32,202 nucleotides of DNA from Crocinitomicaceae bacterium (lineage in GTDB: Bacteria; Bacteroidota; Bacteroidia; Flavobacteriales_D; Crocinitomicaceae). This document shows, one piece after another, positions 1 to 12,072 of this stretch. A program made the position numbers and the translations under genes. Numbering within the stretch: position 1 is the first letter of the stretch; each line of letters begins with the position of its first letter. The notes beneath the pieces were generated by a model, which worked only from the letters and a program-made list of their open reading frames with translations, was not told the origin of the DNA and ran no database searches. The stretch lies in the NCBI GenBank assembly GCA_021740085.1, contig JAIPAL010000024.1, positions 1 to 32,202 on the forward strand. The letters run 5' to 3'.

Positions 1-569
1 GTTAAGTTTAAACCCACCACTGTCCAAGGCAACCAAGTTTGACCACCGCAGTTTTGAAAGTTTTGTCCAGGCTGACCACCATACACGGTATAGATACCAC
101 AATTACCACCAATTTGTTGTCCTGCAGCATTCAGAACCCTTGCTTGAAAGGTTGGTTGGTTATTTGGCGCATGTCCTGGATTCTGCAATACAACGGCATA
201 TTTATAAACGAAAAGTGCATTAATTTGAGAAACAGCTATTTGATATGTTATTCTTTCTCCTTGTGCTCCTGTACTTGAGTTCCCTAATCTTAATGAACGG
301 TTGTGACCAGGAGGAATCATTTGTAAGCCTCCACAAGTATTTGGGTCTATTCCCGGTGCTGTAATTATGGTGTGTCTTCCGTTAACAATCCCAAAGCTGG
401 CTCCTGGATTTGCATAATTACCGGTATATCCTGTCCAACCTGTAAAATTATTCATGTTCAAATTGGCATTCGGACATCCTGGTTGCAGGTATTGTGCATT
501 AATAGGAGAAAGAAACGCTATTAAAACTAAACAAATAAATAGTGTTAAGCGCAAAGTAAAATTTTTCAA
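1..569 (-). CDS. Secreted protein, N-terminal part (runs off left edge)
   Basis: An open reading frame enters the window from the left edge and can be read back to a TTG codon at 569, giving about 189 residues. No in-frame ATG gives a sensible signal peptide. From the TTG the protein begins M-K-N-F-T-L-R-L-T-L-F-I-C-L-V, a classic Sec signal peptide ending N-A-Q near residue 26. The mature part (GCPNANLNMNNFTGWTGYTG, later PPGHNRSLRLGN, FVYKYAVVLQNPGH, FQARVLNAAGQQI) looks like the lectin-like N-terminal domain of large gliding-motility/T9SS-secreted proteins of Bacteroidetes, which usually continue with PKD repeats and a C-terminal sorting domain. That part lies outside the window. It sits 65 bp downstream of the last small paralogue with no visible terminator, so it may be the tail of the same operon. 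The secreted assignment is firm; exact function is unknown. Confidence 0.7.
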   Translation of the reverse strand, partial: MKNFTLRLTLFICLVLIAFLSPINAQYLQPGCPNANLNMNNFTGWTGYTGNYANPGASFGIVNGRHTIITAPGIDPNTCGGLQMIPPGHNRSLRLGNSSTGAQGERITYQIAVSQINALFVYKYAVVLQNPGHAPNNQPTFQARVLNAAGQQIGGNCGIYTVYGGQPGQNFQNCGGQTWLPWTVVGLNL

Positions 570-634
570 GGGTTTTGTTTTTCTTAGTACGTAATTTAAT
601 TTGAGCGGTTGTTTTATTAATGTTTTTTTAATTA

Positions 635-991
635 TCAGGGTATTATATTAAATTCTATGATACTGAGTATACCTCCCGCAGCACCACCAGCACTACCAAA
701 GGTAACCGATGTGCCAGCCGAAAGCCAAAAAGGAAAATTTGCTACTTGGGAGGAGGTTAATTGCTGACGAAGATTATAATACACCCCATTATATAACATG
801 TAAGTATAGGTATTACTTACGGAGTTTAACATGCAATTTTCTAATTTCCAAACTTTACCTGCGGGAACTGTAATTGGTGTCGTATTGCTCGAGGCAAATG
901 CATAAGTAATTACTTGATTAAACTGCAAGTTTCCTTGGGCGAAAGAAGTGTGAATGCTAACCAAAAAAAGGAAAATTAAAATAACTCTCAT
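635..991 (-). CDS. QGNLQFNQV-family small secreted protein, left array member 5
   Basis: This 118-residue protein is the last of five leftward paralogues. A signal peptide of about 18 residues ends F-A-Q, followed by GNLQFNQV, then VPAGKVWKLEN, a variable core, FPFWLSAGTSVTF and the C terminus SIIEFNIIP. Its ATG overlaps the stop of the upstream paralogue in a CCATGA junction. Its own end is CCC TGA, not CCATGA, and no paralogue follows, which marks the array end. The alternating polar/hydrophobic pattern suggests an all-beta domain. No known domain was recognised and the function is unknown; export to the periplasm or cell surface is inferred from the signal peptide. Confidence 0.85.
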   Translation of the reverse strand: MRVILIFLFLVSIHTSFAQGNLQFNQVITYAFASSNTTPITVPAGKVWKLENCMLNSVSNTYTYMLYNGVYYNLRQQLTSSQVANFPFWLSAGTSVTFGSAGGAAGGILSIIEFNIIP

Positions 992-1392
992 GGGGTAATA
1001 TTAAATTCAATGACACTTATTTTGTTTAAGCATATTCCTCCTGATAGCGTTGTACCCGCAGGAAGCCAGATTGGTAGTATAGTGTATGAGTGAACATAAG
1101 CTCCACTAGAATAGGCCAAAGGGGTAGTTCCTTGTCCAACTTTTGTGGGGGTACCAGCCACAATAATTGCTGCAGAATTATAGTCACTAGAAGTACAATT
1201 GCCATAATTCCCTGTTTGATAAGTTGTCGAGCCTTCCGCTATGTTGTAAATAACAGATTCCACTTTCCAAACTTTTCCAACTGGTACAGTTTCTTGTGCG
1301 GTAACTAATTTTACTTGGTTAAACTGCAAATTACCTTGAGAAAATGCGACTTGATTTAGAAGGATAAAAAGAATAAAGTAGAGTTTCTTCAT
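988..1392 (-). CDS. QGNLQFNQV-family small secreted protein, left array member 4
   Basis: A 134-residue protein with signal peptide to about residue 18 (V-A-F-S-Q), then GNLQFNQVKLV, ETVPVGKVWKVES, a variable core with two cysteines (G-N-C-T and G-G-I-C-L) that could pair, LPIWLPAGTTLSG and the C terminus SVIEFNITP. The start overlaps the upstream stop by 4 nt (ATGA) and the stop overlaps the next start in the same way. The first part of the mature protein (QVKLV...ETVP..KVWKVE) is closest to left member 3 and to right-array member 7, so the arrays are related beyond the common motifs. Function unknown. Confidence 0.85.
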   Translation of the reverse strand: MKKLYFILFILLNQVAFSQGNLQFNQVKLVTAQETVPVGKVWKVESVIYNIAEGSTTYQTGNYGNCTSSDYNSAAIIVAGTPTKVGQGTTPLAYSSGAYVHSYTILPIWLPAGTTLSGGICLNKISVIEFNITP

Positions 1393-1820
1393 GGTAAAAT
1401 GTTAAATTCAATAACACTCAAACTTAATACATTGGTGGATGCCGCTAATGTCGTGGATGCAGGTAACCAAATTGGTGCATCAAAAATTTTATAATCGGAA
1501 GCAGTTGTGTAGCCAGAATGGTTCCAATATGCATCGTCTCTTCCAACTTCTCTAGTGATAGTGGTTTGCAAAAATACTTGGTTACTATTGACTAACATTA
1601 TAAAGTTCTTTGTTCCCCCGGCAGTGGCTTGATTTGATGGTCTATTTAAATCAATTGCAAGTTGGGAGGAAGGTAAATAATTTTCCACTTTCCATACCTT
1701 CCCTGCAGGAACAGTTTCTATAGTGGAAACCAATTTCACTTGATTAAACTGCAAGTTACCTTGCGCAAAAGCACCCGTATATAGAAAAGTCGTAATTATA
1801 AATATGTAAAGTCTTTTCAT
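1389..1820 (-). CDS. QGNLQFNQV-family small secreted protein, left array member 3
   Basis: At 143 residues this is the longest family member. The signal peptide M-K-R-L-Y-I-F-I-I-T-T-F-L-Y-T-G-A-F-A-Q is almost the same as that of the neighbouring member 2, pointing to a recent duplication whose cores then differ. Family motifs present: QGNLQFNQVKLV, ETVPAGKVWKVEN, APIWLPASTTLAA and SVIEFNILP. The core is longer than usual and contains a TTITREVGRDDAYW stretch. The mature ends resemble right-array member 7 (8618-8995), which also carries QVKLVS-IETVPAGKVWKV and LSVIEFNI-P. Four-nt overlaps at both ends suggest translational coupling. Function unknown. Confidence 0.85.
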   Translation of the reverse strand: MKRLYIFIITTFLYTGAFAQGNLQFNQVKLVSTIETVPAGKVWKVENYLPSSQLAIDLNRPSNQATAGGTKNFIMLVNSNQVFLQTTITREVGRDDAYWNHSGYTTASDYKIFDAPIWLPASTTLAASTNVLSLSVIEFNILP

Positions 1821-2203
1821 GGGATGATGTTAAATTCAATTATACTAACCCATCGATAACCTGAAGTTCCATTGCAAGCAAGTGCATGCAATGGAGTTCC
1901 CGCTGGCAACCAAAATTGCTGTGTAGAAGAGACATATGTGTAAGCGGCTGAATAACTATCTGTAGTTCCTGCACGAAAAGCCGGGTTTGCTCCATTAAAG
2001 CTAAAATCACAACTGTAATAACTGGTAAGATTAGTTCCATAGCCTTCTATTTTCCATGTTTTACCCGCAGGAACTGTTCCAAGTAATACGTTTGAATTTA
2101 GATTTGTGGAAAGTAATAATACTTGATTAAATTGCAAGTTGCCTTGCGTAAAAGCACCCGTAGATAGAAATATAGTAATTATGAAAATGTAAAGTCTTTT
2201 CAT
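1817..2203 (-). CDS. QGNLQFNQV-family small secreted protein, left array member 2
   Basis: The open frame extends back to 2281, but the ATG at 2203 is the better start. It gives a signal peptide (M-K-R-L-Y-I-F-I-I-T-I-F-L-S-T-G-A-F-T-Q) nearly identical to member 3 and produces the same ATGA overlap seen at every other junction; the 26-residue extension would lie inside the upstream gene. The resulting protein is 128 residues: QGNLQFNQVLLLS, TVPAGKTWKIEG, a core with cysteines at S-C-D and A-C-N, QFWLPAGTPLHA and VSIIEFNIIP. Function unknown. Confidence 0.85.
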   Translation of the reverse strand: MKRLYIFIITIFLSTGAFTQGNLQFNQVLLLSTNLNSNVLLGTVPAGKTWKIEGYGTNLTSYYSCDFSFNGANPAFRAGTTDSYSAAYTYVSSTQQFWLPAGTPLHALACNGTSGYRWVSIIEFNIIP

Positions 2204-2535
2204 GGGATAATATTGAATTCTATAATATTGAAATGGGTAGTTGCATGGTATCCTGAAATAGTTGATCCTGCAGGTAACCAAATTGGGCCTGTTGGCAATG
2301 ATCCGCCCGAACCCTGTGGAAACCAGTTTTGCCCATTTATTACCAATGAGGAATATAATGCGCTACCAGTAGAATTATAGGATTGCGCAGTGTTTTCTAC
2401 TTTCCAAATTTTTCCGGCAGGAACAGTGTTAAGCGCTGGCCCGCTGAATAAGAGTGCTTGATTAAATTGCAAGTTACCTTGAGCAAAAAGCACATAGTTA
2501 AAAAGAATACTTATTATTAGTAACAAGTTTTTCAT
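2200..2535 (-). CDS. QGNLQFNQV-family small secreted protein, left array member 1
   Basis: A 111-residue protein, the shortest canonical member and the first of the left array. The signal peptide of about 18 residues ends L-F-A-Q, followed by GNLQFNQALLF, NTVPAGKIWKVEN, GPIWLPAGSTISG and FNIIEFNIIP. The mature part has no cysteine. It starts 21 bp after the stop of the collagen-like gene at 2557-3978, without a terminator, so it is likely co-transcribed with the collagen-like genes. Its stop overlaps the next start by 4 nt. Function unknown. Confidence 0.85.
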   Translation of the reverse strand: MKNLLLIISILFNYVLFAQGNLQFNQALLFSGPALNTVPAGKIWKVENTAQSYNSTGSALYSSLVINGQNWFPQGSGGSLPTGPIWLPAGSTISGYHATTHFNIIEFNIIP

Positions 2536-2556
2536 GTGATAGAAATAAGGCTAAAA

Positions 2557-3978
2557 TTAAAAGCCGTCTGCGGTATAAATAAGTGTATTTGCCGATGAAG
2601 ATGATCCTCCTCCTGCAGCTGCTCCACCAATTGCCGTCCATGCTGTTCCATTAAAATAATAGAAACCAGCCGTTCCATCGGTTTGATAAACAAGTAACCC
2701 AGTTGCCGGAGTTAAAATTGCCGATTTCTGGGCTAAAGTCATGGTAGGTAATAATAAACCTTGTGTGGTAGATTGAACATCTAAAATGGCAGAAGAATTC
2801 GGTGAAATGGTTCCAATTCCTATGGCTGTGCCTGTATTCGTTAATGTTGAATTGGCCACCCATGTTGTGCCATTATTGCGTAATGTTTGATCGGTACTTC
2901 CAGCTGGTAAGGCTCCTGCTGGCCCCTGTGGACCAGTAGCACCTGTCAAACCAATTGGACCTTGTGTTCCGTTCGTTCCTGCTGGTCCCGTTGCACCTGT
3001 TAATCCAGTTGGACCTGCAACTCCTTGCACTCCTGCTGGTCCTGTAGCACCGGTTAAACCAGTTGGACCAGTTGGACCCGCTGGTCCTGCAACTCCTTGA
3101 AGACCTTGCGCTCCTGCAGGTCCCGTAGCTCCGGTTAATCCAGTTGGACCAGTTGGACCAGCAACACCTTGAAGACCTTGCGCTCCTGCAGGTCCCGTAG
3201 CACCAGTTAATCCAGTTGGACCAGTTGGGCCTGTTGGTCCTGCAACACCTTGTGTACCTTGTGCTCCTGCCGGTCCGGTTGCTCCTGCTGGTCCTGTTAA
3301 TCCCGTTGGTCCTGCTAAACCTTGAATTCCTTGTGCTCCTGCCGGTCCTGTAGCACCTGTTAATCCAGTTGGACCCGTTGCTCCAGCTGCTCCTGCTGGA
3401 CCTGTAATATTACCTGTTAGCGTCCAAGTTGTTGCAGCTGACTTATAATAAACATTTCCATTAGTCATGTTGAGGTAAAAATCACCCATGGCCCCAAGTG
3501 CACCGGCTGGAACCACATTTCCATATCGCCATTGATTTAATTGATTTCCAGCATTTTTAGCATAAAGCGCGTAGGGTACGCTCATCAATTGTTGTGAGCC
3601 ATAATCCAAGTAGTTCGTTCCGTTGGTAAAACTCACACCTAGACTTACGAAATAAGGCCCTGTAGCCCAATTCACAGTTGAAAAGTTACCCCCAAGAAGT
3701 GTCCCTTGTCCAATAACTAAATTTACAACGCCTTGCGCTGAGGTGGTAACGCTATGTCTTTCTTGAAATACGATGGTACCTGAAGCAGAAGTTTGCTTTA
3801 ATTGTATCCGTATTGCAATGGTTGTATTTGCAATCAAAGCTCCTGAAAGATTTCGGATAACCGCTTGATAATTTACACCATCAGGCGCTTGCGCTAAGGC
3901 CTTTGAATTTGGCGTAAAGAGCACTAAAAAGAATAAAGCCGTTGCTAAGCTTAGGTTTGAAAGTAATGTTGTTTTCAT
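2557..3978 (-). CDS. Secreted collagen-like (Gly-X-Y repeat) protein
   Basis: A 473-residue protein. A signal peptide to about residue 30 ends in A-L-A-Q. Residues 30-190 form a globular domain ([20 protein letters not shown] ... [15 protein letters not shown]) common at the N terminus of Bacteroidetes collagen-like and tail-fibre-like proteins. An uninterrupted Gly-X-Y stretch follows at about residues 193-356, rich in GPTG, GATGPAG and GAQGLQG units. The C-terminal part (about 360-473) contains S-A-I-L-D-V and [11 protein letters not shown], typical of Bacteroidetes fibre-like proteins, then a Ser/Gly tract. There is no S74 domain, unlike the upstream neighbour. Its N-terminal half is nearly identical to that neighbour, including an 89-bp identical DNA block. 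It is likely a surface stalk or adhesin; the partner is unknown. Confidence 0.85.
2911..3402 (-). repeat. Gly-X-Y coding repeat of the first collagen-like gene
   Basis: This stretch encodes about 164 residues in strict Gly-X-Y phase. The unit [16 protein letters not shown] recurs several times with small changes. Such DNA is prone to expansion and contraction by slippage or unequal recombination, so length polymorphism between strains is expected (inference). Confidence 0.85.
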
Positions 3979-3995
3979 TTTTTGTATGATTATAA

Positions 3996-6074
3996 TTATT
4001 TATGATTTTCTATTTTTATTTCTAATGCTTCAATTCTTTTTAATAAATCTTCAATTACTTTATCTTGCTCTTTTAACGCTTCAACAAGAATAGGAATAAC
4101 TTCTGTATATCCTACTGTCTTTAAACTTACGGACCCTGCATCAACACCGTCTGATCTTAGCGACATATTTGGAATAATTTTTTCTTTAACTATGGCAGGA
4201 AGTATAGTCTCTACTTCTTGTGCAATAAAGCCATAGGTTAGGCCTACTTTTAATCCTAGTCCAGGAAACTCCTCTAATCTGTGTTCATAGGAAACGCCTC
4301 TTAAATTATTGATAATCGAGCGGGCGTCAGTGATAGTATTGATGTTCTTTTTTATTTTTAAATCGGAAGCGCTTCCGAAAAATCCTGTATACCCTAAATC
4401 ATTTTGAAACAAACCGCCCCACCCGCTAACAGGAGTAATTGTTACAGCTCCATTAACACCTATTGCATTAGCATTAGTTGTTATTCCTCGAACACCAGCA
4501 CCAGCACCACTTCCAATATGTTCACCTTGAACAGCGCCGTAAGTGGTTGTGTTACCAGCCAATATAGTTCCAAAAATACCACTACCATTGAAGGATGAAT
4601 ACCCATTTACTGCCCATGGAAATGTTGCATTTGAAACACCATTCATTAAATCGCCCGCCATAACTGTTGAGGTGGCCCCAATAAAAAATTCCCCAAGATT
4701 ACTTATTCTACCCCTAACCAAATTGTTTGTTCTGAAGTCAATAGAATAGTTACTGTTTGTCCCTAAACTAAGATCACTAACACTCGTATTACCTCCTATA
4801 AGTAATGCTTTATTAGTTGAATTTACCGTTTGTGGAACACTCGTAACGATTGATAAAGTTCCATCTGTTTGAAAGTTGTCGGAAGTAATTGATGTAGCAG
4901 TGCCTGCCGCACCAGTTGCTCCAGTTGGACCTGTAGCACCTGTTACTCCTTGAAGACCTTGTGCTCCAGCCGGACCTGTTGCGCCTGTTAATCCTTGAAT
5001 TCCTTGTGCTCCAGCAGCTCCAGTTGCTCCAGTAGCTCCTGCCGGTCCAGTTAAACCAATAAGCCCTTGTGCTCCAGTTGCACCCGCTGGTCCAGTCAAT
5101 CCTTGAATACCTTGCGCCCCAGTTGCTCCCGCTGGTCCTGCTGGTCCAGTTAAACCAATAAGCCCTTGTGCTCCAGCTGGACCCGTTGCACCCGTCAACC
5201 CTTGAATGCCTTGCGGTCCAGTTGCGCCAATTGGTCCTGCGGGACCTGTTAATCCGATTGGTCCGATTGGTCCTGTCAATCCTTGAATACCTTGCGCACC
5301 AGTTGCTCCTGTTAATCCAGTAGCACCCATTGGTCCCGCAGGCCCAGTAGCTCCAGTTGCACCTGTTGGCCCTGCCGGTCCTGCTGGACCTCCAGCTGGT
5401 CCTGCCGGACCTGTCGCTCCTATTGGTCCTGTCGCACCTGCTGGTCCTGCTACACCTTGAATTCCTTGCACTCCTGCTGGTCCGGTAGCTCCTGTTAATC
5501 CAGTAGCACCCGCAGCTCCAGCCGGACCTGTAATATTACCTGTTAGCGTCCAAGTAGTTGCGTTTGATTTATAATAAACATTTCCATTAGTCATGTTGAG
5601 GTAAAAATCACCCATTGCACCTAGAGCCGCTAAGGGAATTGCATTTCCATATCGCCATTGATTTAGTTGATTCCCTGCATTTTTTGCATATAATGCATAG
5701 GGTACGCTCATCAATTGTTGTGAGCCATAATCCAAGTAGTTCGTTCCGTTGGTAAAACTCACACCTAGACTTACGAAATAAGGCCCCGTTCCCCAATTTA
5801 TGGTAGAAAAATTCCCACCAAGAAGGGTGCCTTGTCCAATGACTAGATTAACAACGCCTTGCGCTGAGGTGGTAACGCTGTGTCTTTCTTGAAATACGAT
5901 GGTACCTGATGCTGAAGTTTGTTTTATTTGAATCCGGATCGCAATAGTTGTATTGGCAACCAAAGCACCAGATAGATTTCGGATAACCGCTTGATAATTG
6001 ATACCATCAGGTGCTTGACTAAATGAAGTTTGTGATAGTAATAAAAGAGCGAAAAACAGTATTATTTTATTCAT
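3996..6074 (-). CDS. Secreted collagen-like protein with C-terminal peptidase S74 chaperone domain
   Basis: A 692-residue protein. The signal peptide ends near residue 19 (T-S-F-S|Q). Residues 20-180 are the same globular domain as in the next gene. Residues 183-391 are Gly-X-Y repeats, broken once by a Gly-Gly near 228-229. A linker of about 180 residues follows, and from Ser570 a peptidase S74 (intramolecular chaperone) domain: [25 protein letters not shown], and a C-terminal helix [19 protein letters not shown]. In this family, known from endosialidases and tail spikes, a Ser and a Lys five residues later perform self-cleavage after trimer folding. Both are present (S570, K575), so release of the last 123 residues is predicted. 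It is the first gene of the leftward set and ends 17 bp before the next. Likely a trimeric surface fibre. Confidence 0.88.
4902..5528 (-). repeat. Gly-X-Y coding repeat of the S74 collagen-like gene
   Basis: It encodes about 209 residues of Gly-X-Y with recurring [10 protein letters not shown] and [10 protein letters not shown] units. The phase slips once, where G-P-A-G is directly followed by G-P-A-G near residues 228-229. Prone to length change by recombination (inference). Confidence 0.85.
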
Positions 6075-6150
6075 AACGGCTTTAAATTAAATTCAATTCT
6101 AAAATTACATATTAAAAAATGAAAAATAAAATTATTAGTAATTAATTAAA

Positions 6151-6183
6151 CAAAAGATATTTTACATTTAATCTAGATATCAA
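6151..6183 (-). promoter_or_regulatory. Possible promoter of the collagen-like/left array operon
   Basis: On the minus strand, TTG (CAA at 6181-6183) is followed after 21 bp by TATCTTTTG (6151-6159), close to the Bacteroidetes pattern TTG-N17-23-TAnnTTTG but with one extra T. It would give a leader of about 70 nt before the ATG at 6074. Confidence 0.35.
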
Positions 6184-6232
6184 GTTATTAAAGGGATTAA
6201 TTCAATAATTTTATAGTGTTAAGATTCATTCT

Positions 6233-6262
6233 TTGTGACGATGAATATTTTTACTAATTTAG
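6233..6262 (+). promoter_or_regulatory. Possible promoter of the right array
   Basis: TTG at 6233-6235, 19 bp, then TAATTTAG at 6255-6262, one base off TAnnTTTG. It would give a leader of about 70 nt before the ATG at 6338, mirroring the leftward promoter candidate. The intergenic region 6075-6337 is otherwise AT-rich, with no gene or clear hairpin seen. Confidence 0.35.
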
Positions 6263-6337
6263 GCTAATGAAAAGACTTTTTGAAACCGTACTAAATTCTC
6301 AAAGTTGTTTCTTTATCATTGAAAATAATACTGTATC

Positions 6338-6760
6338 ATGAAAATAGTAATCATCTTTAGCATTCTTTGGTGCGGGGCTTTTTATTCGCAAGGCAATCTG
6401 CAATTTAATCAAGTGAAGATGGTTTCAAATACAGACGCCCCACAAATTGTCCCTGCTGGAAAAGTATGGAAGATTGAGAGCGTTATCAGTGATGGCGGCC
6501 AAGATTCTTACCCTGTTCAAACATCAGGGTCAACACAATCTTTTTTTGGCGCGTGTGGCGTTCCGGCTTTTTATTATTTATATTATGGTAAATATTTAGC
6601 GATCAATAGTATGCCTATTAGTTTTGGAATCCACAGTTCTGGAGGAGTAATGACCTCTTTACCTTTATGGGTGCCTGCAGGTTCAACAATTTGCATGTGC
6701 ACAAATGCGGCATTTTGTGCTCGTGGTTATTCAGTCATCGAATTTAATATTGTACCATGA
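6338..6760 (+). CDS. QGNLQFNQV-family small secreted protein, right array member 1
   Basis: A 140-residue protein, the first gene of the rightward array. The signal peptide of about 17 residues (S-I-L-W-C-G-A-F-Y-S|Q) is almost shared with member 2. Motifs: QGNLQFNQVKMVS, QIVPAGKVWKIES, LPLWVPAGSTICM and YSVIEFNIVP. The core has several cysteines (A-C-G, I-C-M-C, F-C-A), more than any other member, which suggests disulfide stabilisation after export. Its stop overlaps the next ATG by 4 nt. Function unknown. Confidence 0.85.
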   Translation: MKIVIIFSILWCGAFYSQGNLQFNQVKMVSNTDAPQIVPAGKVWKIESVISDGGQDSYPVQTSGSTQSFFGACGVPAFYYLYYGKYLAINSMPISFGIHSSGGVMTSLPLWVPAGSTICMCTNAAFCARGYSVIEFNIVP

Positions 6761-7101
6761 AACTCTTCTTATTAGTTAGCATTCTCTGGTGTGGAACTTT
6801 TTATTCCCAAGGGAATTTACAATTTAACCAGGTGTTAAATTTGTCTTTTACAAGTGGTGGTACATTTTATCCCATTCCAGTTGGGAAGGTATGGAAATTA
6901 GAGAATGTTGGGATGTCATCTTATGCCTCTTATTTTACAGTAAGTGTAGCGGGACAACAAATATTTTTAAAATGTACACATACAGGTTACACTGCTGAAT
7001 TTAACTCTTTTCCTTATTGGGTAAATGGTGGTCAAAATATCGGGTTTTCTGGTTTAAATGCAGGCGTTGTTAGTATCATAGAATTTAATGTTGTACCATG
7101 A
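6757..7101 (+). CDS. QGNLQFNQV-family small secreted protein, right array member 2
   Basis: A 114-residue protein. The signal peptide S-I-L-W-C-G-T-F-Y-S|Q differs by one residue in that stretch from member 1, while the cores are unrelated in detail. Motifs: QGNLQFNQVLNLS, YPIPVGKVWKLEN, a compact core, FPYWVNGGQNIGF (a weak form of the P-I-W-L-P-A-G motif) and VSIIEFNVVP. ATGA overlaps at both ends. Function unknown. Confidence 0.85.
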   Translation: MKLFLLVSILWCGTFYSQGNLQFNQVLNLSFTSGGTFYPIPVGKVWKLENVGMSSYASYFTVSVAGQQIFLKCTHTGYTAEFNSFPYWVNGGQNIGFSGLNAGVVSIIEFNVVP

Positions 7102-7481
7102 AAAACCTTCTGTTTTTACTTTTTCTATTCTTCAGTTTGAGCTTTACGGCTCAAGGAAATTTACAGTTTAATCAAGTGTTAACATTGACAGGAACAACTA
7201 TTATAGATCCTTTTACACTGGCCACTGTACCAGCTGGAAAAGTTTGGAAGATTGAACATTCATCAGCTGCACGAGCTGGTTCTCCTGCATACGTAAGTTA
7301 TGTGTGTAATAATGTTTCTTCACCAATTTCTCTTCCCCAATCAAATTGGGCATCTTACAAGATGCAAGTTGATGGCCCAATTTGGCTGAAAGCCGGAGAC
7401 TCAATAAAGTTTTCTTATTCGTCAGCTAATAACGCGACTGACTATTTTTTTTCCATTATTGAATTTAATGTAGTACCATGA
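7098..7481 (+). CDS. QGNLQFNQV-family small secreted protein, right array member 3
   Basis: A 127-residue protein. The first 27 residues (signal peptide F-F-S-L-S-F-T-A|Q plus GNLQFNQV) are identical to those of members 4 and 5, and the DNA there differs at only a few, mostly silent, positions. The rest differs. Motifs: ATVPAGKVWKIEH, GPIWLKAGDSIKFS and FSIIEFNVVP. The W-L-K-A-G-D variant is shared with members 4 and 6. ATGA overlaps at both ends. Function unknown. Confidence 0.85.
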   Translation: MKNLLFLLFLFFSLSFTAQGNLQFNQVLTLTGTTIIDPFTLATVPAGKVWKIEHSSAARAGSPAYVSYVCNNVSSPISLPQSNWASYKMQVDGPIWLKAGDSIKFSYSSANNATDYFFSIIEFNVVP

Positions 7482-7867
7482 AAAACCTTCTATTTTTACT
7501 TTTTCTATTCTTCAGTTTGAGCTTTACAGCTCAAGGAAACTTGCAGTTCAACCAGGTATTAAGGGTAAGTAATACCCCGCAAACGGTACCTGTTGGAAAA
7601 GTATGGAAGGTAGAATCGTATTTGGAAAATGAAGGGGATAATTCAATTAATTATTCAACAGGGTGTACCAACCTAGGTTATCATCGTCCACTTACTATTA
7701 ATAATTATAATTATTATTTTGTGGGAACAATAGCTTGGGGAAATACTGCTTATGTTCAACTAGCGAATGCAAATAAACTTCCTGTATGGCTAAAAGCTGG
7801 GGATATAATCAAGACAACTTGCATTCAAGATTTTGCAAGTGTCCTCGAATTTAACATTATACCATGA
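7478..7867 (+). CDS. QGNLQFNQV-family small secreted protein, right array member 4
   Basis: A 129-residue protein with the same signal peptide as members 3 and 5. Motifs: QTVPVGKVWKVESYL, then a core with T-G-C-T-N, Y-H-R-P-L-T-I-N and two cysteines, LPVWLKAGDIIKTTC and SVLEFNIIP. The core is clearly related to member 6 (RHHPFLIN, LPIWLKAGDIVQTTC), although the unrelated-core member 5 lies between them. The two cysteines (S-T-G-C and T-T-C) are conserved between members 4 and 6 and are probably a disulfide. ATGA overlaps at both ends. Function unknown. Confidence 0.85.
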   Translation: MKNLLFLLFLFFSLSFTAQGNLQFNQVLRVSNTPQTVPVGKVWKVESYLENEGDNSINYSTGCTNLGYHRPLTINNYNYYFVGTIAWGNTAYVQLANANKLPVWLKAGDIIKTTCIQDFASVLEFNIIP

Positions 7868-8232
7868 AAAACCTCCTATTTTTACTTTTTCTTTTCTTCA
7901 GTTTGAGTTTTACAGCTCAAGGAAATTTGCAGTTTAATCAAGTACTTTACTTGTCGGGTATTACCGACAATACCACTCAATGGACTGTGCCTGCGGGAAA
8001 GGTGTGGAAAATTGAAGCAGTAGGTGTTTACGGAAGTACCTTGACGGTATATTTAAACGGAGCAACCTCATTTATTTATGCAGGATCTTATTCCAACTCA
8101 AGTCCATCTGGCTATTACCGAAATGCGGATGCTTCGCCAATTTGGCTGCCGGGTGGCAGTATCCTTGGTCAATCTTGTGGATGTGGGGGCAATCGTTGGT
8201 TTAGTATTTTAGAATTTAATGTTATTCCATGA
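7864..8232 (+). CDS. QGNLQFNQV-family small secreted protein, right array member 5
   Basis: A 122-residue protein with the same signal peptide as members 3 and 4. Motifs: QGNLQFNQVLYLSG, WTVPAGKVWKIEA, SPIWLPGGSILGQSCGCGG and FSILEFNVIP. A C-G-C pair lies just before the C-terminal strand. The core differs from both neighbours, so the shared 5' end and divergent middle are best explained by recombination or very uneven selection along the gene. ATGA overlaps at both ends. Function unknown. Confidence 0.85.
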   Translation: MKNLLFLLFLFFSLSFTAQGNLQFNQVLYLSGITDNTTQWTVPAGKVWKIEAVGVYGSTLTVYLNGATSFIYAGSYSNSSPSGYYRNADASPIWLPGGSILGQSCGCGGNRWFSILEFNVIP

Positions 8233-8621
8233 AAAACGTTTTTATTATTCTATTTATTTCTGGTTTTTTTACGGCTTTTGGCCAAGGAAATCTCCAATTT
8301 AATCAGGTGTTGCGCATAAATAATATAGCTCAGACTGTTCCAGTAAATAAAGTCTGGAAAATAGAATCATATATGCAATCTCAAACGGCATTAAGTGATG
8401 GCACTGAAATATCTACCTGTAATTATTTGGATCGTCATCACCCTTTTCTCATCAACACAAAACCTTATTACCTTATCAATGGCTCCCCAGGACATGGTAG
8501 TTCAGGGACCTACATGGCTGTTGGAAATCAATTGCCCATATGGTTGAAGGCTGGTGATATTGTTCAGACGACATGTGTCGATAATTTTTTAAGTATTTTA
8601 GAATTTAATATTGTTCCATGA
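8229..8621 (+). CDS. QGNLQFNQV-family small secreted protein, right array member 6
   Basis: A 130-residue protein. The signal peptide ends F-G|Q at about residue 18. Motifs: GNLQFNQVLRI, QTVPVNKVWKIESYM, LPIWLKAGDIVQTTC and LSILEFNIVP. The core matches member 4 (QTVP, YH/HHP, L-I-N, paired cysteines), with its own signal peptide. In the VPAGKVWK motif the Gly is replaced by Asn. ATGA overlaps at both ends. Function unknown. Confidence 0.85.
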   Translation: MKNVFIILFISGFFTAFGQGNLQFNQVLRINNIAQTVPVNKVWKIESYMQSQTALSDGTEISTCNYLDRHHPFLINTKPYYLINGSPGHGSSGTYMAVGNQLPIWLKAGDIVQTTCVDNFLSILEFNIVP

Positions 8622-8995
8622 AAACACTTTCTTTCCTTTTTTTTACATTCCTTTTGTTTAACAATATTTATTCACAAGGAAATTTACAGTTTAATCAGGT
8701 TAAATTAGTAAGTGCCATAGAAACGGTGCCAGCGGGTAAAGTTTGGAAGGTAACAAACTTTCTTCCAACACCCAACGGTAATTATCAGTTCGCGCAAATC
8801 GGACTTGCTGAATATTTAATTAATATAAATGGTGTAGCTATGAATTTAGGACGCAGGGCATATTATAATAGTTCTTATGGCTTAATGGATGAAGTTCGAC
8901 ATTCAGGCGACATTTGGTTGGCTGCAGGCACGACACTTTCTGTTGTTCAAAATATTGCTCACTTATCAGTCATCGAATTTAATATCGTTCCATGA
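8618..8995 (+). CDS. QGNLQFNQV-family small secreted protein, right array member 7
   Basis: A 125-residue protein. The signal peptide ends I-Y-S|Q at about residue 19. Motifs: GNLQFNQVKLVS, IETVPAGKVWKVTNFLP, GDIWLAAGTTLSV and LSVIEFNIVP. No cysteine in the mature part. It is most like left-array member 3 (1389-1820): both share QVKLVS-IETVPAGKVWKV, a following L-P motif and LSVIEFNI-P, a link across the two divergent arrays. ATGA overlaps at both ends. Function unknown. Confidence 0.85.
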   Translation: MKTLSFLFFTFLLFNNIYSQGNLQFNQVKLVSAIETVPAGKVWKVTNFLPTPNGNYQFAQIGLAEYLININGVAMNLGRRAYYNSSYGLMDEVRHSGDIWLAAGTTLSVVQNIAHLSVIEFNIVP

Positions 8996-9366
8996 AAAAT
9001 CTCCTGTTATTTAGCTGCTTACTAATCAGTTTGAGCTTTAAAGCCCAAGGCAACCTGCAGTTTAACCAGGTATTGCATTTAGAAATCACTTGTTGTACTG
9101 CTTCAACCTTTACAGTTCCAGTTGGTAAAGTGTGGAAAATAGAAGGAGCAATGGCCTATAATAATTCTTACCCTACTAGAATAACGGCTATTAATGGCAA
9201 TCCAATGGAGGCATACCTTACAGGATATACCTACCTTAACTATGGTATTTTGCCGATACCTTTACCATATTGGTTACCAACAAATACGCAAGTATCTTTT
9301 AATACAGGTTCTGGGCTTGGTCAAAAAGGGTACGTTTCTATTATTGAATTTAATGTAATCCCGTAA
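8992..9366 (+). CDS. QGNLQFNQV-family small secreted protein, right array member 8
   Basis: A 124-residue protein, the last canonical member of the right array. The signal peptide of about 18 residues ends S-F-K-A|Q. Motifs: GNLQFNQVLHLE, a C-C pair, FTVPVGKVWKIEG, LPYWLPTNTQVSF (G of the motif lost) and VSIIEFNVIP. The gene ends CCG TAA rather than CCATGA and the next gene follows 5 bp later, so the overlap signature stops here. Function unknown. Confidence 0.85.
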   Translation: MKNLLLFSCLLISLSFKAQGNLQFNQVLHLEITCCTASTFTVPVGKVWKIEGAMAYNNSYPTRITAINGNPMEAYLTGYTYLNYGILPIPLPYWLPTNTQVSFNTGSGLGQKGYVSIIEFNVIP

Positions 9367-9371
9367 ATAAA

Positions 9372-9686
9372 ATGAAGTATATATTATGTTTTTTAGTAGT
9401 GGTTTCTAGTTTTGTGGCGCTTTGCCAAGACACTTCTTTTGTTAAAGTATATTATGCTGGTTCCTACGCTCAAGTGCCTTATGGCAAAATTTGGCAATTC
9501 GAAAAAGTATTTGTTTCCAGTGGAGATGGCTTCAATATTAAAATCAATAACGATGCTTTTAAAGGTGATTTTATTGGCGGTTCAAAAATACAGATTCCAT
9601 ATTACATCGCTGAGATGGAGTTGTTGTCTTCGGGAAGTATGGTCTCCTATATATTATACGTCAAGCAAAGAAATTCTAAGGAATAA
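9372..9686 (+). CDS. Divergent terminal relative of the array family
   Basis: A 104-residue protein. The signal peptide of about 18 residues ends A-L-C|Q. The QGNLQFNQV and EFNIVP motifs are absent, but V-P-Y-G-K-I-W-Q-F-E-K-V corresponds to VPAGKVWKIE, and IQIPYYIAEMELLSSGS sits where P-I-W-L-P-A-G-T normally lies. It begins 5 bp after member 8 and is probably co-transcribed. It may be a degenerate cassette or a specialised capping subunit (inference). A weak hairpin (AAGGA/TCCTT, 9678-9695) with a T-rich tail follows. Confidence 0.7.
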   Translation: MKYILCFLVVVSSFVALCQDTSFVKVYYAGSYAQVPYGKIWQFEKVFVSSGDGFNIKINNDAFKGDFIGGSKIQIPYYIAEMELLSSGSMVSYILYVKQRNSKE

Positions 9687-9759: not shown

Positions 9760-10125
9760 ATGAAGAAAGTCTTTTTAATAGTATCATTAATTTTTGTTGG
9801 TTTCTCCACTATTAATGCTCAATCTTACGCAATCAGTGCCGATGCAAAAAAATTAGAAATCGCTAAAAACACGGGCATTTATGAATTCATAATGGGTGCA
9901 GATGTTACCGAAGATAAGGTAGCGGAGGTTTCAAAGTATTATACGGAGTATTTTACTATCAAATTTGATGAAGCAACTCACAAAGCAACTATAACATTGT
10001 TTAATATCGACGAAACATCTAAAATGGTGATGACAAGATATTTTATAGCAATAGGTGCTGATAAAATTGCTATGGGGGATGAATTAATGCCAATACAAGA
10101 TTATTTTAAAAAATACATTTTGTAA
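9760..10125 (+). CDS. Small secreted protein of unknown function
   Basis: A 121-residue protein with a clear signal peptide ending I-N-A|Q near residue 20. The mature part (about 100 residues) starts SYAISADAKKLEIAKNTGIY and is rich in charged residues, with no cysteine and no recognised motif; it does not carry the array motifs. It lies 73 bp after the array and is followed by a strong terminator, so it may have its own promoter: TAATTTAG at 9729-9736 resembles the -7 candidate of the right array. I do not recognise the family. Confidence 0.7.
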   Translation: MKKVFLIVSLIFVGFSTINAQSYAISADAKKLEIAKNTGIYEFIMGADVTEDKVAEVSKYYTEYFTIKFDEATHKATITLFNIDETSKMVMTRYFIAIGADKIAMGDELMPIQDYFKKYIL

Positions 10126-11196: not shown

Positions 11197-12072
11197 TTAC
11201 CTTTTACCAATATTATAGATAAGTTGAAATGTTAAGCGATAATAAGCATCCATTTGATTAGCATCGCCTCGTTTGTCTCCAATTGTATACGCTAAACTTG
11301 GATTCGAAAGATAAATAGCGGCTGGTGATGACAATAAACTTGGGTCTGTATATTTTGTGCTAACATCATCTAGGTAATCACTGAACGTTTTGGTATAGTT
11401 TCCTTCGATTCCCAAACGTAATTTTTTTGTTAAGCCAATTCGAAGACCAATTCCTGTAGGAATAATAAAAGTAGCTGATTTGTAACTTGTGCTTTGTCCT
11501 TCTGTGTTTAATGGGCGGAGTGGCACCCAAGCGCCGTTATAGGATGCCTTTGGATTGTAGGTGGTAAAACCGATCCCACCAAAAACATACAATTGGCTAT
11601 TTGATTTTCTTCGCTTTGTTCGGCTTGTTAAATTGTAAAAAGATCCGTTAAATTCATTGGCGTAAAATATAAATTCTAAGCGCTGACTTACTTCGAAATT
11701 ATTACTTTTAAAATGTAAGTTGCGTGCTTTACGCATATTCTCCTCGGAGTATTTATCATCCGCTTCAATGCTAAAGTAGCTAAGGCAGGTTTTTGTTGCC
11801 AAATAAGGCCTGAATCGGTATTTGAATGAAATTTCTAGTCCCGTGCCTGTCGATTCCCAATCAATGTCTTTTGTGCTGTAATCAATTCCTTGTCCACCTG
11901 CTCCGCCAAGATCTCCATTGAATTGGGTGGCGCACAGACCAATCTGAATTTCTTTCCTATTTGAACGCCAATTGGTTCGTTTATTGAAATTTTCAATCTT
12001 AAAGAGTTGTGAAATACCACAATTCCATACTGAAATCAATAGAAATAGAATTAAAGTCGTTGAAAATTTCAC
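11197..12072 (-). CDS. Outer-membrane beta-barrel protein, DUF6089/PorG-like
   Basis: A 291-residue protein. The signal peptide ends near residue 21 (N-C-G-I-S|Q). The mature part has many alternating amphipathic strands and aromatic turns (EIQIGLCATQFNGDLGG, GLEISFKYRFRPYLATK, QLYVFGGIGFTTYNP, FIIPTGIGLRIGL, RLTFQLIYNIG), the hallmark of a small outer-membrane barrel. The Q-F-N-G-D-L opening and the I-P-T-G-I-G-L-R strand are like DUF6089 proteins, some of which are annotated as the T9SS component PorG; that identity is likely but unproven here. It is transcribed alone, convergent with add, with a perfect TAAGTTTG -7 element just upstream. A role in T9SS would fit the secreted proteins nearby. 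Confidence 0.7.
   Translation of the reverse strand: MKFSTTLILFLLISVWNCGISQLFKIENFNKRTNWRSNRKEIQIGLCATQFNGDLGGAGGQGIDYSTKDIDWESTGTGLEISFKYRFRPYLATKTCLSYFSIEADDKYSEENMRKARNLHFKSNNFEVSQRLEFIFYANEFNGSFYNLTSRTKRRKSNSQLYVFGGIGFTTYNPKASYNGAWVPLRPLNTEGQSTSYKSATFIIPTGIGLRIGLTKKLRLGIEGNYTKTFSDYLDDVSTKYTDPSLLSSPAAIYLSNPSLAYTIGDKRGDANQMDAYYRLTFQLIYNIGKR

Follow-up and report, generated by a model that had tools for sequence, protein, structure and literature searches.

A shared C-terminal peptide links fibre-like proteins to arrays of an unrecognised family of small secreted proteins in a Crocinitomicaceae bacterium

The first 32,202 nucleotides of contig JAIPAL010000024.1 from a Crocinitomicaceae bacterium (assembly GCA_021740085.1), referred to here as the window, carry two divergent arrays of small secreted proteins, which we term family F, flanking two collagen-like genes. 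We found that the gene just upstream of many runs of F genes ends in one peptide resembling TLIYTxDGF, whatever the body of the encoded protein. This link between the tail and family F is strong, and it was absent from the earlier sequence-only reading of the window. The simplest reason for it would be that the tail serves as a docking site. We tentatively propose, with a confidence that falls just short of an even balance, that the system consists of a MAT-like stalk with a docking tail and of heads supplied in trans by the divergent genes of the F array.

Contig C9, which begins with the window, belongs to a 2.41-Mb genome of 101 contigs that is 87.6% complete. It contains thirteen intact F paralogues and one divergent relative, and all 15 matches of one F protein in this genome fall inside it. 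The sequence-only reading had reported thirteen paralogues, five leftward and eight rightward, and each of them proved to be an intact open reading frame. The left arm comprises five minus-strand genes (635-2535) and the right arm nine plus-strand genes (6338-9686, including the divergent F14), all with intact reading frames. An overlap of exactly 4 base pairs (bp) was present at 11 of 11 junctions inside both arms. For F4, the TTG start given far upstream in the open reading frame list was replaced by a start at 2203, which gives a signal peptide and a protein of 128 amino acids (aa). The features are as follows.

1..581, minus strand: 5′ portion of a large PKD-type gene for a secreted protein, which closes the left arm and is truncated where the contig begins; position of the start codon approximate (sequence reading)
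635..991, minus strand: F1, small secreted protein, 118 aa (best match L042, 97%)
988..1392, minus strand: F2, 134 aa (best match L039, 84%)
1389..1820, minus strand: F3, 143 aa (best match L038, 94%)
1817..2203, minus strand: F4, 128 aa, corrected start (open reading frame and alignment)
2200..2535, minus strand: F5, 111 aa, immediately behind the tail-bearing stalk gene (open reading frame and alignment)
2557..3978, minus strand: stalk gene with MAT-like N-domain, collagen repeats, C-terminal module, Gly/Ser linker and terminal tail (Collagen, E 8.1e-25)
2560..2589, minus strand: codons of the C-terminal tail (10 residues), proposed docking peptide (tail count among non-F open reading frames)
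3996..6074, minus strand: second collagen-like fibre gene with a Peptidase_S74 chaperone domain and no tail (Collagen, E 6.3e-29; Peptidase_S74, E 1.1e-10)
6075..6337, no strand: divergent intergenic region between the arms, presumed promoters (coordinates only)
6338..6760, plus strand: F6, 140 aa (open reading frame and alignment)
6757..7101, plus strand: F7, 114 aa (open reading frame and alignment)
7098..7481, plus strand: F8, 127 aa (leader DNA 97% like that of F9 over 60 bases, core unrelated)
7478..7867, plus strand: F9, 129 aa, mature form folded as model md446abbff85f (open reading frame, alignment, AlphaFold2)
7864..8232, plus strand: F10, 122 aa (open reading frame and alignment)
8229..8621, plus strand: F11, 130 aa (open reading frame and alignment)
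8618..8995, plus strand: F12, 125 aa (open reading frame and alignment)
8992..9366, plus strand: F13, 124 aa (open reading frame and alignment)
9372..9686, plus strand: F14, divergent yet conserved member, 104 aa (alignment, orthologues and the ratio of nonsynonymous to synonymous substitution, dN/dS)

An iterated profile search gave 568 F open reading frames in 104 loci, and after the removal of overlapping copies 430 of them remained, in 93 runs and 75 loci. The tail, run and body counts omit L001-L037 and L112-L132: these either duplicate the same genomes, fully or in part, or were added later. Among 1275 non-F open reading frames of at least 100 aa with a complete 3′ end in the 75 loci, 48 bear the tail, and each of these 48 is the immediate upstream neighbour of F genes on its strand. 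In the window, the tail belongs to the stalk gene 2557-3978, which ends in a flexible Gly/Ser linker followed by TLIYTADGF. The terminal glycine and phenylalanine of the tail are invariant, although the search pattern itself requires both. Because synonymous codons vary within the tail, the constraint acts on the protein. Across the genus, the 67-residue C-terminal region of the stalk gave 42 matches in 28 of 61 genomes. Nine of these reach the last residue, and all nine adjoin F genes; the other 33 stop between residues 42 and 63, where, as a local alignment can end early, a divergent tail is possible in some. Seen from the side of the F genes, 48 of the 93 runs stand directly behind a tail gene, 15 have one at another place in the locus (many of these runs being a second arm), for 17 the start lies within 700 bp of an edge, and the remaining 13 lack a tail gene. 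A tail-bearing gene occurs in 47 of the 75 loci, and L050, L056, L092, L101, L102, and L108 each combine one tail gene with a single F gene.

The sequence-only reading had connected the arrays to the two collagen-like genes. Both indeed match Pfam Collagen, but only 2557-3978 bears the tail. Similarly, a fibre gene lies beside F in many loci, while the constant partner is the tail protein and not collagen as such: at least eight consecutive Gly-X-Y triplets are present in 33 of the 48 tail proteins and missing from the other 15. A YQAV-type N-terminal motif is common to 37 of the 43 tail proteins with a complete 5′ end, and some tail proteins are only about 160 aa long, consisting of N-domain, linker, and tail. 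Both collagen-like proteins of the window match Bdello_MAT_N below its cut-off of 60 (41.6 bits for 2557-3978 and 39.3 bits for 3996-6074). Ten proteins were scanned from other loci, namely the L045 cis fusion and nine tail proteins; nine of the ten match this model as well, all below the cut-off, and the one without a match is the L061 tail protein. In 2557-3978, Pfam shows Collagen only; the protein has no globular or S74 tip in cis and ends in the linker and tail. The stalk genes match tail fibres in PHROG, largely across the collagen repeat, and a SDLKIKK motif was found in the 3996-6074 gene. Most tail proteins thus look like collagen- or MAT-type fibres, and since collagen repeats imply a triple helix, the stalk encoded by 2557-3978 is probably trimeric.

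We aligned the 14 F proteins of the window (alignment A1) and found M1, Q19, F24, P45, K48, W50, and N124 to be invariant, whereas the middle is variable. Hence the fixed plan noticed earlier, with conserved N- and C-terminal ends around a variable core, reappears in the alignment, as it does in the comparison of core and frame described below. Every F protein of the window has a signal peptide with an apparent cut before glutamine, as expected from the Q-rule of Bacteroidetes (available parts of PMC5837995 and PMC10653852). For a wider view, a diverse set of mature proteins of 85-150 aa was drawn from the window and L038-L111 (set A2), in which 143 of 373 were kept after close relatives had been dropped. 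Scans against Pfam and NCBIfam gave no credible match for the six F proteins among ten window proteins, and isolated marginal matches only for the 143 members. These were GH131_N in one member (E 0.0024) and three NCBIfam models in one member each (best E 0.0025), which we treated as chance. The F profile found nothing below E 0.089 among PDB sequences. Together with the PHROG and PADLOC scans, these results uphold the view that the family is unrecognised. Within the limited literature collection searched, we found no published description of the system, and four F motif strings occurred in no paper.

AlphaFold2, run on single F9 with the 143-sequence input, predicted an all-beta protein of nine strands, with a predicted local distance difference test score (pLDDT) of 89.5 and a predicted template modelling score (pTM) of 0.81. 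Foldseek found no PDB or BFVD match to this model at E 0.001 or better. The best BFVD matches, mostly proteins of about 110 aa and many of them from uncultured tailed phages, had E values of at least 7e-3 and template modelling (TM) scores of about 0.3-0.44; we regard them as a lead and did not use them.

Natural fusions suggest that the F frame may act as a unit, whose ends can be re-joined and whose variable middle can be replaced by another module. In L045, a MAT-like N-domain is joined to F in a single chain (F part, E 5e-6), and L096 encodes two F-F tandem proteins. In L048, L068, L080, and L110, the C-terminal half of F precedes the N-terminal half and is followed by a glycine-rich region; the E values of the two swapped halves are 2e-5 to 8e-3 and 1e-9 to 1e-8. 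Pfam Gly_rich_2 was confirmed in L048, the sole one of these four swapped proteins that was scanned.

According to the explanation that we tentatively favour, 2557-3978 would give a secreted, probably trimeric MAT-type collagen-like stalk without a recognised head domain. The F proteins would be exported and form small beta domains in which the first and last strands are conserved and the middle varies, and this conserved frame would dock on the tail of the stalk. Each F gene would then represent a different head, so that one stalk gene could serve about thirteen heads. The 4-bp overlaps suggest that the F genes are co-expressed, and the heads would be made together from two operons. The repertoire would change by gain, loss, and recombination of whole cassettes and not by fast point change. 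The likely use would be attachment to varied surfaces, glycans, or other cells.

Several results weigh against this explanation. Of the 93 runs, 13 have no tail gene, and for several of these the locus has no collagen gene either (L062, L066, L104, L109, and L111). In eight of the 17 F-bearing genus genomes, no match reaches the tail, although two of these eight, G004 (L033) and G054 (via record L053), have tail genes with a different body. The loci that revealed the tail rule are also those in which it was counted, and the genus-wide search is only partly independent of them. In an AlphaFold2 single chain of tail and F5, the tail remained unstructured (pLDDT about 50-58) and formed no strand. 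This chain read through stop codons as a device; it is a weak test because it included the signal peptide and contained no trimer, yet its outcome is negative. An alignment of 14 of 17 in-frame chains with 97 F proteins (A3) was also prepared. An exploratory comparison of tail type with F residues gave no clear covariation (7 versus 39 loci, confounded by descent). Last, Foldseek against PDB and BFVD found no significant match of the F fold to any adhesin head.

The same parts could instead build a stacked pilus comparable to the F-ENA endospore appendages, in which the tail protein would be the anchor and F trimers would stack via their terminal strands, each latching to its predecessor, which would make the F proteins beads of one mixed fibre as opposed to alternative heads. 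We consider this main rival unlikely, but it deserves serious attention, as the parts list of F-ENA is similar, with trimeric subunits of about 10 kDa, short hook peptides, and an upstream collagen-like F-Anchor (available part of PMC11952670). The conserved first and last F strands could form two stacking faces, and both the F-F tandems of L096 and the cis fusion of N-domain and F in L045 fit such an arrangement. Ena3A (8pdz, rank 15) and Ena2A (9i0y, ranks 24-25) even appear in the Foldseek list of the F model; however, with E values of 0.16-0.20 and TM scores of 0.22-0.27, these matches are not significant and give no evidence of kinship. Moreover, DUF4183 was not found in the genome of the window, and none of the 143 F members matched it at E 0.01. 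The F-Anchor, as far as the available part of PMC11952670 describes it, ends in a subunit-like domain, while the putative anchor here ends in a bare peptide.

We think it improbable that the tail acts in sorting or as a signal for the outer membrane while the F proteins are independent secreted proteins sharing nothing but the operon. A general sorting tail would be expected away from F too, but in the loci examined 0 of the 48 tails are found there, and the 33 of 42 genus matches that have the stalk body do not extend to the tail. What speaks for such a signal is the missing contact between tail and F in the AlphaFold2 chain, together with the fact that other genes of the arrays encode a separate C-terminal sorting domain. 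This type IX domain, Por_Secre_tail, is present in 6 of 10 neighbouring proteins at or near array ends, which were chosen by eye, and it was not detected in any of the 143 F members at E 0.01. The presumed surface display of F would perhaps be assisted by type IX secretion. A PorG-like/DUF6089 outer-membrane beta-barrel gene lies at 11197-12072 on the minus strand of the window (T9SS_PorG, 92.6 bits; cut-off, 130).

The F genes of the window share 76-97% identity with collinear orthologues in L042, L038, and L039, while their closest paralogues are 35-47% identical. At 75% identity or above, orthologues were found for 11 of 14 genes in L042, 11 of 14 in L038, 9 of 14 in L039, and 3 of 14 in L059. 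The dN/dS values of orthologues lie mostly between 0.06 and 0.24, with higher single-gene values for F12 in L038 (0.60), F12 and F13 in L039 (0.64 and 0.33), and F10 in L059 (0.35). Pooled dN/dS was 0.08-0.27 for the core and 0.04-0.14 for the N-terminal frame; in L042, L038, and L039 the core is less constrained than the frame, which is not the case in L059. The label "degenerate" previously given to 9372-9686 does not hold, as F14 is unlike a decaying copy: its best matches cover all 104 residues, with 94% identity in L042 (dN/dS 0.07) and 89% in L038 (dN/dS 0.17). A further match in L059 reaches 78% over 92 residues, and L039 has no F14 orthologue in the available sequence. Among F8, F9, and F10, the first 60 bases of leader DNA show 90-97% identity, beyond which the cores are unrelated, a pattern that points to recombination at the leader. 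Thus, F members are old and constrained, their sets change by gain and loss, and their leaders seem to recombine. An antigenic or phase-variable coat, displaying one F protein at a time and changing quickly to escape phages or grazers, could draw on the conserved ends, the variable middle, and the leader recombination, but is very improbable given the 4-bp overlaps, the same-order orthologues, and dN/dS values that are mostly below 0.25 outside the four single genes at 0.33-0.64, since purifying selection on orthologous F genes speaks against rapid antigenic variation.

Returning to a stalk with heads supplied in trans, a bolder form of this explanation would combine one stalk, a universal docking peptide, and any of a dozen or more heads in a set rewritten by recombination via conserved leader and junction DNA; we regard it as possible but somewhat doubtful. 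If the explanation by stalk and heads were true, a free-living bacterium could keep many adhesive specificities without many long fibre genes, and the short head-recruiting peptide would serve as a simple display tag. The attachment machinery of uncultured Bacteroidota is little known, and the combination of tail and F array offers a sequence handle for surface recognition systems in these organisms. It would also link three fields, namely MAT fibres, ENA pili, and the tip adhesins of phages.

MAT proteins assemble as trimers into surface fibres, in which the base is conserved and the end, of a recognition type, is varied (available part of PMC10769870). The MAT fibres of Bdellovibrio have a signal peptide, a conserved beta-rich N-domain, a trimeric fibre, S74 and non-S74 forms, and a far end diversified for recognition, a plan that the system described here would resemble; they carry their tips in cis (available part of PMC10769870). 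In our system, the fibre terminates in a peptide, and the heads, as proposed, would come from separate genes. The similarity of the stalks to the Bdello_MAT_N model stays below its cut-off. The F-ENA appendages, composed of DUF4183, F-Anchor, and F-BclA proteins, resemble our system, as proposed, in their small beta subunits, upstream collagen-like anchor, and peptide-mediated joining, but they belong to Bacillota spores, show no detected sequence link, and have an anchor that ends in a subunit domain; the available part of PMC11952670 describes no arrays of a dozen divergent paralogues. A collagen-like anchor directly upstream is found here as well, though not universally, given 48 of 93 runs behind a tail gene and collagen in 33 of 48 tail genes. 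In their mode of working, no known systems come closer than F-ENA and MAT fibres, and each departs from ours in at least one tested membership feature, because the tail stalk has no tip in cis and F has no DUF4183.

In T-even phages, the long tail fibre gp37 is trimeric, its receptor-binding tip gp38 is encoded by the next gene, and the tips of these adhesins are glycine-rich. These fibres differ in being phage-borne and in having one tip gene per fibre, while F was not found in the viral contigs, phages, and plasmids searched. The collagen-like adhesins Lcl, SclA, and SclB share collagen triple-helix repeats and NCBIfam matches with the stalk genes; however, the scores lie far below the cut-offs (112.8 against 500 bits for Lcl) and arise chiefly over the repeat region. 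We know of no F partner for Lcl, SclA, or SclB.

Family F is present in 17 of 61 genomes of the genus, including the one analysed here, in 1 of 39 other genomes of the order (one weak match in G074), and, at E 1e-8, in 0 of 394 other genomes across the phylum, a few of which were already in the genus and order sample. A scan of GTDB genome contigs detected 115 relatives, and 74 loci were returned. Within the genus, F occurs in 14 of 14 genomes with a deaminase-like neighbour gene (match at E 1e-60) versus 3 of 47 without it; F thus tracks a sub-clade, and its patchy occurrence is largely a matter of descent. The tandem arrangement is kept in other genomes. The outcome that the sequence-only reading had named as refuting it, paralogues scattered and never beside collagen-like genes, did not arise: 48 of the 93 runs stand directly behind a tail gene. 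Runs contain 1 to 19 F genes; if runs interrupted by a gap or by a different gene are summed, L071, L090, and L061 reach 24, 21, and 20. A 4-bp overlap is present at 154 of 275 F junctions overall. At the limits used, F was not found in viral contigs by profile scan or in phages and plasmids by tblastn with one F protein, which ruled against an origin from mobile elements. With respect to a role in defence, PADLOC was negative for the five proteins submitted.

Most record titles of the relatives name Bacteroidota assembled from metagenomes, and several include the name of a lake or pond sample. The metagenome-assembled genomes of L039, L040, L046, and L048 bear titles like Chryseobacterium gleum, Streptomyces griseus, and Chitinophaga pinensis, which appear to be loose labels. 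Contigs break at or beside arrays in L130 (G006:C115) and at the start of the window, perhaps because of the repetitive cassettes, and F counts in metagenome-assembled genomes may therefore be too low. The end of G006:C115 lies 235 bases past the neighbouring deaminase-like gene.

Next to the arrays of the window, the PKD-type gene at 1..581 has a longer relative in L042, itself cut by a contig end, which matches PKD_4 and PKD. Beyond the right arm, 9760-10125 (plus strand) encodes a small secreted protein with a sub-threshold DUF4971 match, which adjoins the array in 8 clustered loci, some of them copies from one genome. In a second type of locus (L040, L043, L058, L075, and relatives), the left arm closes with a gene of about 240 aa that by eye resembles an outer-membrane barrel, and the tail gene opens the right arm. 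This barrel-like gene recurs in 19 clustered loci, some of which are copies from one genome; for the copy in L040, Pfam gave no match. L044, L072, and L080 have a gene of about 304-315 aa, SIR2-like by eye, between the fibre gene and F; the fibre genes there have no tail, and PADLOC gave no match for the L080 copy of the SIR2-like gene. Very long arrays of 18-24 F genes are found in L061, L069, L071, L084, L090, and L094. Five of these six have a short non-collagen tail protein in front, and L071 starts at an edge. The arrays of L061 and L069 end in a PKD protein of about 1035 aa with a type IX sorting domain, and that of L090 contains a Gly_rich_2 gene.

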